NCBI GenBank assembly: GCA_015178975.1
Contig: WHVD01000060.1
Location: 62,001-126,000 of the forward strand
Length of the DNA: 64,000 nt
Source: Hysterangium stoloniferum
Lineage: Eukaryota > Basidiomycota > Agaricomycetes > Hysterangiales > Hysterangiaceae
Reading direction: 5' to 3'
Under the pieces are notes generated by a model that was not told the DNA's origin, did no database searches, and was given only the letters and a program-made list of their open reading frames with translations. Numbering within the stretch: the first letter of the stretch is position 1; each line of letters starts with the position of its first letter. Shown here in pieces: positions 2,043-63,835 of this stretch. Both the position numbers and the translations under genes were made by a program.

Positions 2043-2298
2043 TGTTAAAGGTATAGAAAAGAATTGACCCAGCCTGGGATTGAACCAAGGACCTCTGGCT
2101 TTATATAAGCAGTGCTCTTAACCACTGAGCTACTGGACCTATTGGTCTAGTGAGATATAATGGATTATATATACATATTCTAATATAAGTCCTTCTGATG
2201 CTACCATGGGACTTATACAGCCACATCTGGACTGATGCCAACTAGGGACTTATAACAGCTTGGACATTCTAATAGATATTGTATTTCCAAATCTAACA
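2043..2298 (-). mobile_element. TRIM-2: small solo LTR carrying a tRNA-like sequence
   Basis: This 256-bp unit has TG/CA-type ends (forward strand starts TGTTAGATTTGG and ends CCTTTAACA). It is flanked by the direct repeat ATAGT (2038-2042, 2299-2303). The inverted copy of the surrounding repeat at 4.1-4.26 kb lacks it and shows one ATAGT, so this is a verified insertion. Near its 3' end it carries a 75-nt tRNA-like stretch. A second copy with its own duplication lies at 40168-40418. It behaves as an LTR of a miniature retroelement; no internal region is attached. Confidence 0.8.
2065..2139 (-). other. tRNA-like sequence inside the TRIM-2 LTR
   Basis: The reverse strand reads GGTCCAG at the 5' side and CTGGGTC plus A at the 3' side, which pair as a seven-base acceptor stem with wobbles. 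An A-box-like TAGCTCAGTGG and a B-box-like GGTTCAATCCC are present. The anticodon arm is not canonical, so I call it tRNA-derived rather than a working tRNA gene. Confidence 0.7.
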
Positions 2299-16226: not shown

Positions 16227-16560
16227 AAATCTGGCCGAGATATGCTACACAACTGTCCTTTTTACTATGCCTTTCTTATCTGTCACCCTCTAATTGAACT
16301 GTCTTGTGTATCTGTTTCAAGTTGTTCATAGGTCTATGAACAATTCGATTTGCTTCCAAATAATTTCCCTGCCTTGCTATCGTGGTGATTTATGTAAGAA
16401 CCCATTTCATGACCTCTGCTAGAGAAATATGTCTAAGTCATGATTGATCTCAACATGGTTAGCTCACTCTTGATAAGTGACATATGAATTCTCCGATGGC
16501 TACATTAAATCATACAAGACAAGGAGTGTTAGATTGAGTAATGCTAGCAGTGTTTCCCAG

Positions 16561-16631
16561 GGTCAGGTGGTGTAGTGGCAATACCCTTGCTATATATACA
16601 GAAGCCCTAAGTTCAATCCCCAGTCTGGCCA
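16561..16631 (+). other. tRNA-like sequence in the TRIM-1 5' LTR
   Basis: 71 nt. The 5' end GGTCAGG pairs with 3' TCTGGCC (plus A) as an acceptor stem with wobbles. An A-box-like GGTGTAGTGG and a B-box-like GTTCAATCCC lie at tRNA spacing. The anticodon loop lacks the usual U33, so this is tRNA-derived, not a working tRNA. Confidence 0.75.
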
Positions 16632-16760
16632 TTCATTTTCTACACTTTTAACAGGTTATGAGTCCCGCTATGTGCTATAGGGCATGGTTCCTGTGTGTAG
16701 AGTGAACAGCTATATTTGTGTGTGGTATAGTGGACAAGTCTGGACAAAAGAGCCGGAGAG

Positions 16761-17480
16761 TGTTAAGAACTGGAAACTGACTAATGTCGGTGGCCGACAG
16801 GGACCGATCGGAAGGACTTGGCTTCAGCTTATGGGCTGTGCCCTCGCAAATATCCGCAGGATGTCCTTAAATTTCGGGCGGGCGAAGACTAGTCCTAGTG
16901 AGTACCTTTCGGCGTGATACCGATCGGAATCGAAGGACAAGTCGGGCATCGGGCCAAGGGGTCGGGGCCGGGAGTGGGCGAGCGCACGCGAAGGCGGATG
17001 GGGGAAGTCTTAGTATGAGACTGATACAGGTGTATGAGGGTATTCTGAGTCGATATTCTGATTGTCTTGTAACTACAATTACAGCGGGTTCATATACAAG
17101 TAACAGGCGTCTGGAAAGTACTAATGGGGAGAAGGGCGGAACACGGTATTAACAATAAGCTTGACTAGGAACGGGAAGTTTATGATTAGTTCGGAGGCCG
17201 ATGATAACCGAGAGCGGGATTACGATAAAAGGAAATGGTTCGAGGACTACAAATATAGATAGACATATGCGAAACATAAGATTGAACGGATCAACATAAT
17301 AAAGGGGACGTATCAAAGTTTGACCAGACAATACGAGTTATTTGATGTGGGCGTAAATGGAGTTTGATCTTCGCGAAACATTCGTCAGCTTCGGGGCCGA
17401 TGGTTTCCGAGAGGATGACTTGAAATGTTGACAAGTGGCGATAACCTCGGGGCCGATAGGGTTGCGACACGGTCGTAACA
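16761..17480 (-). repeat. Solo LTR, family A, with target duplication GAGAG
   Basis: 720 bp in reverse orientation, from TGTTAAGAACTGG to CGGTCGTAACA, flanked by GAGAG on both sides (16756-16760, 17481-17485). It is nested in the internal region of TRIM-1. It is CpG-rich and very similar to the copy at 34174, so it is young. Confidence 0.92.
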
Positions 17481-17567
17481 GAGAGGACCTATATCTGCAT
17501 ATAATATTGTTGAGTGCTAGCATTAAGGGAGTGTGTTAGATTGAGTAATGCTAGCAGTGTTTCCCAG

Positions 17568-17638
17568 GGTCAGGTAGTGTAGTGGTAACACCCTTGCTAT
17601 ATATGCAGAAGCCCTGGGTTCAATCCCCAGTTTGGCCA
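17568..17638 (+). other. tRNA-like sequence in the TRIM-1 3' LTR
   Basis: Same arrangement as 16561-16631: acceptor-stem halves GGTCAGG and TTTGGCC, A-box-like AGTGTAGTGG and B-box-like GGTTCAATCCC. It differs from the 5' LTR copy at only a handful of positions. Confidence 0.75.
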
Positions 17639-17660
17639 TTCATTTTCTACACTTTTAACA

Positions 17661-17998
17661 AGGAGGCCCCAGGCCTAATGTTTAATGCTGGTTATTGGAT
17701 GGCATGCAAATGCACAACTTGAAAAATCCCTAGGTCATGCCTTTCCACCACTCAAAATTTCCAATCTGGCTTTGAATATTTGCCAGCTGCTGTGTGTTTG
17801 CCTCTAATACCCTTATAACCATCTGTTACTATTCCACAGTGAACCTTACCATTGAGTTGTCCAACTTTACAACTGTATACTTGTGCCATAGCTACTTCAT
17901 CACCTAGGTACCATGTATACTGCTGTTATACAGCCACGGAATCAAATACATACTTTCAACAATATTTTCTAGAAAACTCAAGATTCCCACAGACGACT
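17661..17998. other. Gap between TRIM-1 and the copia element
   Basis: No LTR or domain is recognised. A reverse frame (HCGIVTDGYKGIRGKHTAAG) is open for a short distance, but I cannot place it in a family. Confidence 0.35.
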
Positions 17999-34173: not shown

Positions 34174-34894
34174 TGTTACGACCGTGTCGCAACCCTATCG
34201 GCCCCGAGGTTATCGCCACTTGTCAACGTTTCAAGTCATCCTCTCGGAAACCATCGGCCCCGAAGCTGACGAATGTTTCGCGAAGATCAAACTCCATTTA
34301 CGCCCACGTCAAATAACTCGTATTGTCTGGTCAAACTTTGATACGTTCCCCTTTATTATGTTGATCCGTTCAATCTTATGTTTCGCATATGTCTATCTAT
34401 ATTAGTAGTCCTCGAACCATTTCCTTTTACCGTAATCCCGCTCTCGGTTATCATCGGCCTCCGAACTAATCATAAACTTCCCGTTCCTAGTCAAGCTTAT
34501 TGTTAAAACCGTGTTCCGCCCTTCTCCCCATTAGTATTTTCCAGACGCCTGTTACTTGTATATGAACCTGCTGTAATTGTAGTTGCTAGGCAATCAGAAT
34601 ATCGACTCAGAATACCCTCATACACCTGTATCAGTCTCATACTAAGAATCCCCCCATCCGCCTTCGCGTGCGCTCGCCCACTCCCGGCCCCGACCCCTTG
34701 GCCCGACGCTCGACTTGTCCTTCAATTCCGATCGGTATCACGCCGAAAGGGACTCACTAGGATTAGTCTTCGCCCGCCCGAAATTTAAGGACATCCTACG
34801 GATATTTGCGAGGGCGCAGCACATAAGCTGAAGCCAAGTCCTTCCGATCGGTCCCTGTCGGCCACCGACATTAGTCAGTTTCCAGTTCTTAACA
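34174..34894 (+). repeat. Solo LTR, family A, with target duplication GTTAT
   Basis: 721 bp, TGTTACGACCGTGTCGC to AGTTCTTAACA, flanked by GTTAT (34169-34173, 34895-34899). It is inserted in the RT of the family B gypsy. It is CpG-rich in a CpG-poor host element, so it is a recent insertion into an old fossil. Confidence 0.95.
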
Positions 34895-40167: not shown

Positions 40168-40418
40168 TGTTAGAAATGGGAAAATACAATATCTATATGT
40201 GACAGACTGTTATAAGACCCAGGCTTGCCATCAGTTATATAAACTGTTATAAGAGCACAAGTTGGCATCATAAGTCCTTATATATATGTATATATAATCC
40301 ATCATATAATACTAGACTATAGGTCCAGTAGCTCAGTGGTTAAGAGCACCTGCATATAAAGCCAGGAGGTCCTTGGTTCAATCCCAGGCTGGGTCAATTC
40401 TTTTCTATGCCTGTAACA
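40168..40418 (+). mobile_element. TRIM-2 solo LTR with tRNA-like sequence, target duplication TTACT
   Basis: 251 bp from TGTTAGAAATGGG to TATGCCTGTAACA, flanked by TTACT on both sides (40163-40167, 40419-40423). It is inserted in the 3' LTR of the gypsy. It aligns with the reverse of 2043-2298. The tRNA-like stretch is 40322-40396. Confidence 0.88.
40322..40396 (+). other. tRNA-like sequence in TRIM-2
   Basis: 75 nt with acceptor halves GGTCCAG and CTGGGTC (plus A), A-box-like TAGCTCAGTGG and B-box-like GGTTCAATCCC. The anticodon stem is imperfect; tRNA-derived. Confidence 0.75.
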
Positions 40419-47409: not shown

Positions 47410-47818
47410 ATGTTCGCCAATGTGGTGTTTAAGGTTGTCATCATTGACCCATGAGTACGTTTGCAGGCCTGCTTGAAAAAAAAAGACCGACTTGTTAGAT
47501 TAAGTAATGCTAGCAGTGTTTTCCAGGGTCAGGTGTAATGGTCAACACCCCTGCTATATATGCAGAAGCCCTGGGTTCAATCCCCAGTCTGGCCATTTAT
47601 TTTCTACACTTTTAACATGACTTATGTCTTTTGTCCAATTAATTCAAAAAAACATGTAAAAAAGTATACAATTGTAAATAATTAATGAATGAAATTAGAA
47701 TATTTCAAAATAAGTTAGATCACATGCCATGATAAATACCTAGAACTTCCAATGTATGGCAAAGCAATGGGACATCTTTCTTTCTTCTTTTTGTGTGTGG
47801 AGGGCCAGGTGTGCTGAA
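47410..47818 (+). mobile_element. Helitron 3' tail fragment
   Basis: The forward frame NVVFKVVIID matches the helicase tail NVVFKDVIIDRQ at 43775-43805. The bases after the nested TRIM-1 LTR (TGACTTATGTC..., AATTGTAAATAATTAATGAA) resemble those following the helicase stop at 43853. Only the tail is present, so it is a fragment. Confidence 0.55.
47493..47617 (+). mobile_element. TRIM-1 solo LTR with tRNA-like sequence
   Basis: 125 bp from TGTTAGATTAAG to CACTTTTAACA, nearly identical to the TRIM-1 LTRs at 16.5 and 17.5 kb. The flanks are CGACT and TGACT (4 of 5). It is inserted in the Helitron tail. The tRNA-like part is 47527-47595, with B-box-like GGTTCAATCCC. Confidence 0.85.
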
Positions 47819-50737: not shown

Positions 50738-50810
50738 GGGTTGGTAGCTCAGTGGTAGAACGACTGGTCTAGATTACAGATTGTCCCAGGTTCAATTCCT
50801 AGCTAGTCCA
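50738..50810 (+). other. tRNA-like sequence (pseudo-tRNA or SINE head)
   Basis: 73 nt: acceptor halves GGGTTGG and CTAGTCC plus A pair throughout with wobbles; A-box TAGCTCAGTGG; B-box GGTTCAATTCC; anticodon stem GGTCT/AGATT. The anticodon loop AGATTAC lacks U33, so it is probably not a working tRNA. No TG/CA ends with target duplication were found around it, unlike the two TRIM families. Confidence 0.55.
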
Positions 50811-51932: not shown

Positions 51933-52877
51933 TGTTAAGTGCCATGTCAGGGACTTATTCCAGAACTATCAGGAAATAACTGGGAACTCAGATACTTCCA
52001 GGCAGGGTCAGGATTTGGCTTCAGCTTATGTCCTGTGCCCCTACACAAATGCTCAGATATCCTTAATTTCAGAGGACTGTGTTACGACCGTGTCGCAACC
52101 CTATCGGTCCTGAGGTTATCGCCACTTATCAACATTTTCAAGTCACCATTTCGGAAACCATCGGCCCCGAAGCTGACGTATGTTTTCGTGAAGATCAAAC
52201 TCTGTTTACGCCCATGTCAAAATAACTCGTATTGTCTGGTCAAACTTTTGATACGTCCCTTTTATTATGTTGATCCGTTCAATCTTATGTTTCACATATG
52301 TCTATCTATATTTGTAGTCCTTGAACTATTTCCTTTTATCATAATCCCGCTCTCGGTTATCATCGGCCTCCGAACTAATCATAAACTTCCCGTTCCTAGT
52401 CAAGTTTATTGTTAATGCCGTTTTCTGCCCTTCTCCCCATTAGTATTTTCTAGACGCCTGTTACTTGTATATGAACCCGCTGTAGTTGTAGTTACTAGGC
52501 AATCAGAATATCGACTCAGAATACCCTCATACGTCCATAACAGTCCCATACTAAGAACCCCCCCATCCACCTTCGCGTGCGCTCGCCCACTTCCGGCCCC
52601 GACCCCTTGGCCCAACGCTCAACTGGTCCTTCGGTTCCGATCAGTATCTCACTGAAAGGAGCTCTTTGGGATTAGTCTTCACCTGCCCAAAATCTAAGGA
52701 CACCCTACGGATATTTGCGAGGGCACAGCACATAAGCTGAAGCCAAGTCCTTTCGATCGGTCCCTGTCGGCCACCGACATTAGTCAGTTTTCAGTTCTTA
52801 ACACATGGATGGAAGTCGGGTTGGAAAGTTATGGAAAGTTATGGAGAATTGAAGTATCCAGGAATGGGTTGTAACAG
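51933..52877 (-). repeat. LTR, family B, split by a family A LTR
   Basis: The outer parts match family B in reverse orientation (TGTTAAGTGCCATGTC at the left, AGGAATGGGTTGTAACA at the right), with a family A LTR at 52080-52803 between them. No target duplication is visible for the B copy. Confidence 0.7.
52080..52803 (+). repeat. Solo LTR, family A, inside a family B LTR
   Basis: 724 bp, TGTTACGACCGTGTCGC to AGTTCTTAACA. It is CpG-rich and close to the copies at 16761 and 34174. The flanks GACTG and CATGG differ, so the surrounding LTR has probably been rearranged. Confidence 0.85.
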
Positions 52878-53338: not shown

Positions 53339-53906
53339 TCCAGCATCGACTATTACGGACTAGACAGTGAAGAGCTGAGTGGTTGGGTAGAGGAAGAGCG
53401 TTAGCTCTCCGTGTGTGCGTGGGAAGACTTGCCGCTCGGGAGGGCGGGTAATCATTATGCATTAACAGCTCTCGTTACTGTATAATCCGCTAACTACGGT
53501 AAATATATCACATCGAAATATTGATACTTGATTACTGCCGCTGTTTAAAGAAAGGGCTAGGGTGGGTGGGTAAATTAATTGTGTAGATATGTAGAGATAA
53601 GGATCAGAAGTCAGTGATGAGAAAACAGAAAGGACTGAGGATCGACAGCGACGTCGTACAAGAACACAAGGCGTGCGAGTCCTACATATGCTCAGCTGGA
53701 CGTTGAGTGCCGAACTACTCCCGGCACGCCAGGGATCGTGCGGCACTCGACACTATCCAGCATCGACTATTACGGACTAGACAGTGAAGAGCTGAGTGGT
53801 TGGGTAGAGGAAGAGCGTTAGCTCTCCACGTGTGCATGGGAAGACTCGCCGCTCACCCACAAAAGGCCTGCCTACTACCGCAGCGAGACTACGCCACTCA
53901 CCCAAC

Positions 53907-55095: not shown

Positions 55096-55202
55096 TGCTG
55101 GTGCTATGATGATTGGATCTGATGATGCAAATGGATGGGAATATCCATCTCGGCATGGGTGTTTGCCCTTGGGAAACCCCTGAGAAATTCAGCGATGTGT
55201 CC

Positions 55203-56100
55203 TCATGAGAGGGCGTCTGACACGTTGTCTCTTGAGGGTATGTAAATGGCTTTCAAATGTATTCGGTGGGTGGCTAGTAGGCGATAAATCTCTTTTAGGA
55301 CCTTGTTTGTCTCCTTGCTGCGGGAATGACCCTTGTTTATAATGGCGACTACCCCACTGTTGTCGGAGCGCACCAGGAACATTGAATGAGAAGGGAGATG
55401 ATGGCGCAGCAAGCCATTCTGCAGTGCCAATCTCAGGCCCAGCTCTACTGCTACTGCTTCTGCCCACCCAATATCGCATTCGCAGCGAGGGCCGACTTTG
55501 AAACTGGGAGCCCATTTCCAGGCGGCCCAATGGCAGTCGACGATGACACCTATCCCATAGGATAAGCTGGCATCTCCCCACCAGCCGATGTCTACTACAT
55601 CGGGCGATGGAATTGGGAGTTCGTTTGGCAGATGCCGGAGTATGTACTGGATCCAGGAGAGATCCGCTTGCACTGATGGGGTTGGCAGTAGGTGTGCTCT
55701 GCGAGAATGAAAACTGCTTGCAAATGCTGCGATGGACCGGAGAAAGGGCCTGATCCATGGGAAGATGGCTGACAAGTGCACCAACTTCCCATGTAGCTTC
55801 TCCACCTCATTTGCTGAGAACTGCGTGCCATCTGCCATCCACTGCACGATCAAGGTGAGGGTTGCACGTAGTTTCTCTGGTGGCATTTATTCCACTGTTT
55901 ATGGAAGGGTATTCTGGGTCTCCCCGGGGAAAGGAAAGGTCTTGGATTAGGTGGTAAGTGTTGGAGTTTGGTTTTGGGATGAGGCCCAGTGGGGAGGTCT
56001 GAAATGGGCCGATGATCTGCTCTAGCTGCGCTGGGGTGAAGCCCCGAGAGTAGTGTCCAGCCCCTTGTTCGCTCGCTATGTACTTGTATATAAAGTCCAT
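55203..56100 (-). pseudogene. Ngaro reverse transcriptase/RNase H
   Basis: RT entry motifs HYSRGFTPAQLEQIIGPF and IPKPNSNTYHLIQDLSFPRG are followed by the RT thumb and RNase H region (FSANEVEKLHGKLVHLSAIF; LVRSDNSGVVAIINKG). Together they are typical of DIRS/Ngaro polyproteins. Broken. Confidence 0.8.
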
Positions 56101-56282
56101 GTCTAATGAAGAGGATTTGTGATTTTCGAAAAATGACAGTGCGTGATATGCAGTCCTTTATCCCAATATCGAAGCTGTTGATTAAACCTGAGATAACGTA
56201 TTCCCACCTGTCGAGTATACCATATTTACTTAATGTACGTGCCACTTCGATTGGATCAAGCGGCGTCGTGACCCTTCTTGGG

Positions 56283-57871
56283 TCAGAGATGCTTGCAGGC
56301 TGCTGCTCCGTGGTCTTGCTCGAAGCAGATGCTGCACATGTGTGCATTGGTGCAGGTGTCACCCCACCGGCACTGTGTTCCTGTTGCCCACTTGAAACAA
56401 AACTGCTTTCCATCGGGGGATGCCAAGGCATGCTTGTTTCTGGCGTCCCGGGCGATTGGGGCAGCGTTCTTCCCTGCTGATGTGAGTTTTGCTGTGCAGT
56501 CAGCCAGAAAGTGCCCCTGTGTCCCACACAAAAAGCAATGTGAACATTCCCCATCTGTGCGAGGCCTCTTTCGAGGAGAAGTGGAGAGGGGCGGTGGCCC
56601 AGCTGGCCCAAGGCGTTTCGCTGGGGAGACTGAGGTGGTGCTGGATCTTGATGCCTGCAGTGCTGCCCGTGTCGAGATTATTGTCAGGGCATTGGTGTCC
56701 AGGCAGCTCAAGTCGTGGGTCGGGTTGCGGGCAGCTGCTTCATGCTGTTGCACATCGTATTCCATGGCCACTTCCAAGCTATGGGATTTCACAATGGTTG
56801 TCACAACTGCGTGGTGGGCCGAAAGCGCATCAGCTCTGGTGTCACCCCTGTGAATCCTAGTACGGTCGACTGCTGCTGCTGCTGCTGAGAGCCAGTCGAT
56901 GATGGAGATGCTCCTCTCATTATCACGGTCCAGCCCTTTGGCCACAATGTTGCCTGAAGGCGAGAAGGTGAATTCTTCCAAGCCTCTCTCTGCCTTCCGC
57001 CGCGCCTCCGTAGTGAGGGCTGTATAAGGGACGTAGTGTAGGTTCCTGAAGGCTTCCTCTACCTTCCGAGGAATGGCTGTGAATGGAAACAATAAAAATG
57101 AGCTGGTTGGCCCCTGACATGAGGTATAATAATGAATAGAAGGTGCGGCAAGCCACAGAAAAAAAAGGGGGGGGGAGGATTGCGATGTATGACTGGCCCA
57201 GAGCCTGGCATCCGTTGGTCTGCCATGGGACTCTGCAGGCCAGCTGCATGACGGCTTAACTCATGCTCCTCCCAGGTGCCAGCAGCTCCCTGTGATGGAC
57301 TGTCTGTAATGGGGCGCCGGCCTACAGGCTGGCCCCTGAGCTGTCTGAATGATGCTGCACACTGACAGTGCTGCGGCTGTGTCCAATTGGGCCAAAGAGA
57401 GAGATAGATGGACTCACAGATCTCTAAGGCGTTGGCCTTGAATCCTGGAATTATATCAGGGACCGCTGCCTTCTTGGTGGTCCTAGCATCACCAGCCATG
57501 GAGGCCTGTATGTTGGCCAGCTGGATCGTATCCGGGTCAGTGAATAATCTCGTCACACCTGGTGAGATGTCTGAAAGGACCCTGCTGCCATGGACATCTG
57601 GTCTGCCTTGAGCCAACAGGAGGTCTCGACGTGCAGCCAATTGCGCAATCTGAGCCTCTAGTTGATCGATCTCGTGAGGGGGGGAGGACTGGCAATCTCC
57701 CTGATTGTTGCTGGTGGCCTCCAGATGTGGGATGACCGGGGAATGTGGGATACCAGCTGTCGCCGAAAGAAGAGGTTCCGGTCCTGCTTCGGGGTGGGGC
57801 GGGTGCCCTTCAGGGTTCAGGTTGATACCCAAGTGGGCGAACATGCCTTGAGGTAGGGATCCAGATGTCAT
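56283..57871 (-). pseudogene. Ngaro ORF1 (gag-like, zinc-finger protein)
   Basis: Start MTSGSLPQGMFAHLGINLNP. A GT-AG intron of about 340 nt (about 57425 to 57080) seems to separate PGFKANALEI from AIPRKVEEAFRNLHYVPYTA. The second part ends in a Cys/His-rich tail: CFLCGTQGHFLADC (zinc knuckle), then CFKWATGTQCRWGDTCTNAH (CCCH-like) and CSICFEQDHGAAAC. This would be the nucleic-acid-binding structural protein of the element. Confidence 0.72.
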
Positions 57872-58074
57872 CGAGTGAGCTTTAAAAAAAGATTAATTGT
57901 GTAGATATGTAGAGATAAGGATCAGAAGTCAGTGATGAGAAAACAGAAAGGACTGAGGATCGACAGCGACGTCGTACAAGAACACAAGGCGTGCGAGTCC
58001 TACATATGCTCAGCTGGACGTTGAGTGCTGAACTACTCCCGGCATGCCAGGGATCGTGCAGCACTCGACACTAT

Positions 58075-62345: not shown

Positions 62346-63835
62346 AATAAAAAATAGAACTTAATAATAATTGAACATAAAAAGTAAAGCGTGAAAAACA
62401 TAAAAATAAAAGTCAAAGCCAAAGTCTGCGGAGAGTCCACTTAAAGACTTGACAAGACATGTCAGAACCTGTAAAAGCAAAGAGAGACATAGGGCGACAG
62501 GGAATCATGAAAATGAGTCCAAACGTAACACGGGGTCCACAGAGTGTGGTCAGAGAGATGATAATGGTCCAGGTTTGAGTGGGTAAGCTGTATGAAAGTC
62601 AGTAATGATTTCCATGGCATTACCGAGTTCCATGGCCAAAATCCATGAGGTCTCTTCATCGGTGCCCTCGTAACCCGCCCACTTGACCAAGTAAAGCAGT
62701 TTACAAGTGCGTCGACGCTTATCAATTTTTGAATCTAAAATCTGTGAGATTTCAAACTCGGGTTCTCCGTCAATGATGACAGGAGGAGGCGGAGATTGCA
62801 CACGATCCGGGATAGTGTTAGCAGCACAAGGTTCTAACATAGAAACATGAAATACTGGGTGTACCCCACGCATGCTATCCGGAAGCCGTAGAGTCCAAGA
62901 AACTGAACCTACTTGTGTGATAATTTCAAACGGACCTAAATATTTTTCAGCAAGCTTCTTTGATGGACGGGTAGTCCGGAAGAATTGAGCTTTGACATAA
63001 ACACGGTCGCCAATCTTGAAGTTTGGTGGCAGGATCCGGTGTTTGTCCGCTGAATGTTGGTATTGCTCTTGGGTGGACAATATTGCAGTCTGGAGTTCCT
63101 CATGGAGCTCGTGGAGGTCTGTGGTGAACTCTTGAGTGCAAGCAGAGGCAATATTTCATTCTGGATGTACTGTAATATTTGGATTATATCCTTTATTTGC
63201 AAAGAACAGGGAAACGCCAGTAGTGGCCAAGGGTGCATTGTTGTAAGCAAATTCTGCAAGTGGTAACAAGGATTTCCAATTGTCCTGTTGGTAATTGCAA
63301 TATACATGGAGATATTGTTCCAATGTCTGATTGTCATGTTCGGTTTGTCTGTCGCCTTCCGGGTGAGGTCTGGACGTGAAATGTAATTTCATGTCCAAGG
63401 ATTCCCAAGGGATCTAAAGAAGTGAGACACAAACTCTGATCCTCGATCAGAAGTCACGTGGGATGGAACTCCATGCTTGGAAAATATGTGGACAATGAAA
63501 AGTTCCGCTAACTGCACGGATGTAATTGTGTCATAAGTAGGGATGAATATACCTTGTTTTGAGAATCTGTCAACAATGACTAGAATGGCGGAAAAGCCTT
63601 CGGAATCCGGTAGGTGTTCAATGAAATCCATAGAGATAGAATTCCATGGGGTGTTCCGGTACCGGGAGTTGTTTCAAAAGGCCCTATGGCTTGTGTCACT
63701 GAGATTTCGAGTGGGGACAAGTAGTGCAAGATTTACAATAGTGCTTAACGAATCCATAGAGTCTGGGCCAAGTATATTCTCTTCTTATTAATGATAGAGT
63801 TTTGTTGTACCTGAAATGTCCTGAGAGTGGATGAT

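Follow-up and report, generated by a model that had tools for sequence, protein, structure and literature searches.

A TRIM with tRNA-like LTRs in Hysterangium stoloniferum, very probably a Helenus element

The DNA analysed here, hereafter the window, is a 64-kb stretch of the Hysterangium stoloniferum genome. It contains a TRIM on the forward strand, both LTRs of which carry a tRNA-like stretch and the internal region of which is interrupted by a solo LTR of a different element. The features of the locus are as follows.

16522..16526 (left) and 17661..17665 (right): target-site duplication AGGAG, 5 bp, flanking both TRIM LTRs
16527..16653, + strand: 5' LTR, 127 bp
16561..16631, + strand: tRNA-like stretch of the 5' LTR, 71 nt
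16654..16669, + strand: primer-binding site GGTTATGAGTCCCGCT, adjoining the 5' LTR with no gap
16654..16760, + strand: TRIM internal region, left part, 107 bp, one copy of the nested duplication included
16756..16760 (left) and 17481..17485 (right): GAGAG duplication of the nested element
16761..17480, + strand: nested solo LTR of another element, not TRIM sequence, 720 bp, TGTTAA...GTAACA
17486..17533, + strand: TRIM internal region, right part, 48 bp
17525..17533, + strand: polypurine-tract candidate AAGGGAGTG, directly before the 3' LTR
17534..17660, + strand: 3' LTR, 127 bp
17568..17638, + strand: tRNA-like stretch of the 3' LTR, 71 nt

The LTRs start with TGTTAG and end with TTAACA, and thus have TG/CA ends. 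They are identical at 120 of 127 positions, and the seven differences are all transitions. A preliminary description of the locus, made from the sequence alone, had reported two 127-bp LTRs with these ends, AGGAG on their outer sides and a primer site adjoining the 5' LTR, all of which were recovered. Exact 5-mer matches at the spacing of the TRIM occur at 100 of 62,856 window positions (0.16%). The reverse complement of the primer site contains CTCATAA, which we take to be an iMet-type anticodon loop, leaning also on the comparison made in Kojima 2024. The primer tRNA would be initiator tRNA-Met, used through its anticodon half, as judged from this short match. The 9-mer GGTTATGAG occurs only once in the window, at the primer site, and at least one copy is also found in 43 of 100 shuffles. 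The purine tract reported before the 3' LTR is in place, but it is not wholly purine, as AAGGGAGTG includes one T.

The internal region, as it stands, is 880 bp long. A blast comparison of the window with itself revealed that most of this region recurs elsewhere, for instance at 34174-34894 (97%) and at 52077-52804 (91%). The 720-bp unit was read as a solo LTR nested in the TRIM because it recurs, has TG...CA ends and is bordered by GAGAG on both sides; consequently, the view of the 880-bp region as a single unit was rejected. By subtraction (880-720-5), 155 bp belong to the TRIM itself. The preliminary description, which left the nested solo LTR unnamed, had given an internal sequence of about 155 bp with no ORF, a figure that holds once the nested unit is removed. 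Translated one by one, the 107- and 48-bp pieces leave no room for an ORF of more than 35 codons. Without the 720-bp unit and one of the two GAGAG copies, the TRIM is 409 bp long (127+155+127). The two recurrences are roughly full-length copies of the 720-bp unit; the copy at 34174-34894 has ATAAC on either side, and the flanks of the copy at 52077-52804 do not match. A diverged relative of the same unit was found by the self-comparison at about 904-1632.

With 7 of 127 LTR sites differing, the TRIM copy is probably old, as far as its sequence indicates. The LTR divergence (K2P 0.058) corresponds to about 28 My at a literature rate of 1.05e-9, a figure that is only rough because it depends on just seven differences, all transitions.

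The 71-nt tRNA-like stretch that had been described in each LTR is present in both copies in different states of preservation. The stretch in the 3' LTR scores 43.1 bits against the Rfam tRNA model, the threshold of which is 29 bits, and is also called by ARAGORN. The stretch in the 5' LTR, scored in a search by itself, reaches 22.0 bits and is below threshold. Two changes break its T stem while box B (GTTCAATCC) is kept, and ARAGORN finds it at a relaxed setting only. All seven differences between the LTRs fall within the tRNA-like 71 of 127 bp, a clustering that was noticed post hoc and has a chance probability of 0.017. The stretch has consequently not been spared in this copy; the clustering could be due to chance or to faster mutation of a transcribed stretch.

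Three additional tRNA-bearing LTRs stand alone outside the TRIM, bringing the number in the window to five, in two families.

2043..2298, - strand: solo LTR of the second family, 256 bp; flanks ACTAT/ACTAT; tRNA-like stretch at 2065-2139
40168..40418, + strand: solo LTR of the second family, 251 bp; flanks TTACT/TTACT; tRNA-like stretch at 40322-40396
47493..47617, + strand: solo LTR of the TRIM family, 125 bp; flanks CGACT/TGACT, alike at 4 of 5 bases
47527-47595, + strand: tRNA-like stretch of the TRIM-family solo LTR, 33.0 bits when searched alone, missing from the faster whole-window run

Second-family LTRs begin with TGTTAG and end with TAACA, as do those of the TRIM. Their tRNA-like stretch is 75 nt long, stops 22 nt short of the LTR end and scored 45.4 and 48.6 bits in the whole-window Rfam run. 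Across the five LTRs, the scores are therefore 43.1, 22.0, 33.0, 45.4 and 48.6 bits, four of which exceed 29. The whole-window run returned four tRNA matches, three of them within LTRs. ARAGORN made three calls in the window, all located in tRNA-bearing LTRs, and none in each of 100 dinucleotide shuffles, a test that was run with a positive control; the stretch at 47527-47595 was left uncalled. Counting the TRIM as one element, the 5-bp duplications are exact at three of the four tRNA-bearing elements and match at 4 of 5 bases at the fourth (47493-47617). The chance of an exact 5-bp match is 0.12-0.16%, and that of a match at 4 or more of 5 bases is about 1.8-1.9%. The 22-nt tails of the two second-family LTRs match that of the 3' LTR at 17 and 15 of 22 positions, values reached by 130 and 544 of 10,000 shuffles, respectively; this resemblance is weak and is not leaned on.

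The fourth Rfam match of the whole-window run (50738-50810, 33.4 bits) is not called by ARAGORN. No LTR ends were found in the sequence around it, and the self-comparison of the window at E 1e-10 gave no repeat copy. It could be a tRNA relic, the head of a SINE or an LTR in decay. Relatives outside the window were sought by pattern in viral contigs, which returned no stretches, and in prokaryote genome contigs, which returned two stretches of Sulfurimonas MAG sequence. Apart from matches of 11-12 nt, these two have in common with the LTR only the 22-23 nt of its AT-rich end demanded by the pattern, and they were taken as chance.

Elements with this architecture have a name. TRIMs with tRNA-like LTRs, present in rusts and in Agaricomycetes, were described as Helenus in Kojima 2024 (PMC10886601). 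Contrary to what the preliminary description suggested, fungal elements of this type were already known, and a novel class of fungal elements was rejected because of this earlier report. According to the same source, Helenus elements are 311-1263 bp in length, and the fungal ones produce 5-bp duplications; solo LTRs with 5-bp duplications are also noted (PMC10886601). The primer site of most fungal families matches the anticodon loop of a tRNA, mainly iMet, and most Helenus families have TRGCY and YGG in box A and GGTTC in box B (PMC10886601).

The TRIM is very probably Helenus, that is, a non-autonomous LTR retrotransposon whose LTRs contain a tRNA-derived internal Pol III promoter, and we regard this as the best explanation of the locus as a whole. 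It has tRNA-derived sequence in both LTRs, a length of 409 bp without coding capacity, primer and purine sites at the ends of the internal region and 5-bp duplications. The traits shared with fungal Helenus are the tRNA-like stretch in both paired LTRs, a primer site that is probably of the iMet anticodon-loop type, the purine tract, the 5-bp duplications, the solo LTRs with duplications of the same length and the occurrence of several families per genome. A departure concerns box A, which reads TAGTG/TGGTG in the TRIM's own LTRs and is damaged in the TRIM-family solo LTR. TRGCY is present in two of the five LTRs, both of the second family, and is absent from those of the TRIM. GGTTC is found in four of five, and the 5' LTR has AGTTC instead. 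The element adds to the already described Helenus and does not define a new class; it was assigned by its structure. Searches of the open-licence PubMed Central literature turned up, as follow-up on Helenus, only a 2026 meeting report mentioning Kojima 2024; for Agaricomycetes they turned up no evident similar report besides Kojima 2024, and the passages seen of one mushroom paper were silent on tRNA. TRIMs as a group had already been recorded in fungi, in three of five Boletales genomes, by a study whose passages on these elements leave tRNA in the LTR unmentioned (PMC5689174).

The preliminary description had classified the element as a TRIM with tRNA-like LTRs, had supposed a possible Pol III-type promoter and copia-type enzymes, and had chosen Cassandra as its analogue, all of which fits the evidence. 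Cassandra, from plants, is likewise a TRIM whose LTRs include a Pol III template, but it carries 5S rRNA sequence, and the plant primer site given for it, TGGTATCAGAGC, is unlike that of the TRIM. Ajax, from nemerteans, shares with the TRIM the Pol III promoter sequence in the LTR and the 5-bp duplications (PMC10886601), but is derived from 5S whereas the LTRs described here are derived from tRNA. No 5S rRNA match was obtained at the gathering threshold in the window, where every match reaching it was to tRNA, and none up to E 1 in the 5' LTR stretch.

Such an element probably works as follows. Boxes A and B in the LTR would recruit TFIIIC and Pol III, and transcription would most likely start close to where the 5' LTR has its tRNA-like stretch. 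Pol III would read through the weak T4 tracts at the end of the 5' LTR and then through the short internal region, and would stop in or past the 3' LTR, yielding an RNA with repeated ends. This RNA would be copied in trans by Copia-type enzymes of an autonomous relative, with initiator tRNA-Met acting as primer through its anticodon half, and the copy would be inserted with 5-bp duplications. We infer Pol III transcription, terminator read-through, the identity of the primer tRNA and a Copia helper. For Helenus in general, Copia elements have been argued to be the probable helper, and Pol III transcription is, by the author's own statement, an inference (PMC10886601).

No autonomous partner of the TRIM was seen in the window: GGTTATGAG is single, and Pfam scans of seven of the nine ORFs of at least 200 aa returned no Copia match. 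Two side observations concern other parts of the window. The segment 53339-58074 is composed of A1 (57892-58074), minus-strand ORFs (55189-57892), B1 (53756-53854), A2 (53574-53756) and B2 (53339-53437); the A copies are 98% and the B copies 96% identical. These split direct repeats recall, in our view, Ngaro-type tyrosine-recombinase retroelements; three of the five ORFs in the segment were scanned with Pfam and gave no match. On the minus strand at 62550-63155, Pfam detected a chromodomain and a Tf2-1-like SH3 domain, which we take to resemble the end of a Gypsy-type, chromovirus-like polyprotein.

The tRNA-like stretch probably serves as the TRIM's own promoter. An alternative, which we consider unlikely, is that the element is an ordinary TRIM transcribed by Pol II, and that the LTRs contain a tRNA-derived insert, an old SINE for example, that is now idle. 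Structurally this would still be Helenus; the alternative competes on the promoter only. Several observations speak for it or against the promoter. The stretch in the 5' LTR, from which transcription would be driven, is the weakest of all, with a broken T stem; the stretch of the TRIM-family solo LTR is also decayed, with its damaged box A, and the TRIM's own box A lacks TRGCY. Moreover, if the T4 tracts located right behind the promoter halt Pol III, short transcripts would be favoured. Minimum-energy folds give a three-armed cloverleaf for only two of the five stretches, with z-scores that are at best modest (+0.61 to -1.68). The cloverleaf is clean for 47527-47595; that of 2065-2139 has imperfect arms, and its energy is matched by 141 of 200 shuffles.

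The distribution of differences between the two second-family LTRs argues against an idle insert. In the halves that hold box A and box B, their tRNA-like stretches are identical at 58 of 58 sites, though the upstream part of the LTR differs at 43 of 151 (108/151 identical, with 11 columns gapped; box halves versus upstream, Fisher p 1.7e-7). The anticodon arm is identical at 12 of 16 aligned sites, with 2 further gapped columns, and the tail at 20 of 22. This comparison involves one sequence pair, its borders were chosen after viewing the alignments and its sites were treated as independent, and the contrast is for these reasons an indication, not proof. With other gap costs, the upstream part is identical at 121 of 148 sites and the tRNA-like stretch at 73 of 73, its differences all being read as gaps. 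Aligned without gaps, the stretch is identical at 62 of 75 sites, and its central 17 sites hold all 13 mismatches. Across these second-family alignments, the box halves still stand apart from the upstream sequence. Upstream identities between the short and the long LTRs are meaningless, as a 34-nt stretch is gapped into 154-159 nt. An idle insert is also at odds with the position of box B, the start of which lies 43 nt from the LTR end in all five LTRs of both families. A T4 tract is found 4 nt past the end of the tRNA-like stretch, again in five of five; the longest T run in the TRIM's own sequence is 4, which is often expected at such a length and is not counted as evidence. At the sequence level, the pattern of the second-family boxes agrees with preservation of a Pol III promoter rather than of a tRNA. 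The TRIM itself shows the opposite, its LTR differences all lying in the tRNA-like stretch. The evidence as a whole supports descent from a tRNA and the presence of promoter boxes, not a working tRNA.

The tRNA-derived stretch, the short length and the several dispersed copies might also be accounted for by a SINE, or by tRNA pseudogenes lying by chance in a repeat. Like tRNA-derived SINEs (SINE2), the TRIM is short and non-autonomous and has a tRNA-derived internal promoter. SINEs, however, lack LTRs, a primer site and a purine tract, and their insertion follows a different mechanism (PMC10886601). What the window contains in place of the SINE-type signs that the preliminary description had named against its own reading are paired LTRs, TG/CA ends, 5-bp duplications (exact or nearly so at every tRNA-bearing element), a primer site, a purine tract and a 3' end that is fixed as TAACA and has no A tail. 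The SINE or pseudogene reading is contradicted by the paired LTRs and the fixed end, and was rejected as highly improbable. Use of the LTR's tRNA-like RNA as the element's own reverse-transcription primer would give the stretch a role in replication, but is supported by none of the results and was discarded as scarcely conceivable. It is contradicted for this copy: the stretch matches the complement of the primer region (20 nt) over at most 4 nt in the 3' LTR and at most 3 nt in the 5' LTR, an absence of correspondence also reported for Helenus in general (PMC10886601).

Returning to a promoter within the LTR, the T4 tracts follow the tRNA-like stretch in both LTRs, so that a full RNA requires Pol III to pass through those of the 5' LTR. 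In budding yeast, T4 alone causes very weak pausing and no detectable release, while a nearby RNA hairpin turns it into a moderately efficient terminator (PMC9278858). By this behaviour, a leaky T4 could serve both ends. We propose, tentatively and as a possibility that falls short of being probable, that boxes A and B, unlike the anticodon arm, are maintained by selection, and that T4 acts as a leaky terminator, which would be passed at the 5' end and would end the RNA at the 3' end.

The TRIM represents an independent sighting of Helenus that came from inspection of the bare sequence, and two LTR families occur together within 64 kb. The contrast between the boxes and the anticodon arm bears on the proposed promoter role of the tRNA-like stretch. 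A leaky T4, if true, would explain how an LTR element driven by Pol III makes an RNA with repeated ends, a question left open by the anatomy of Helenus. Since tRNA gene counts in rusts are inflated by Helenus (PMC10886601), the finding also serves as a warning that tRNA gene counts in genomes such as this one may be inflated.
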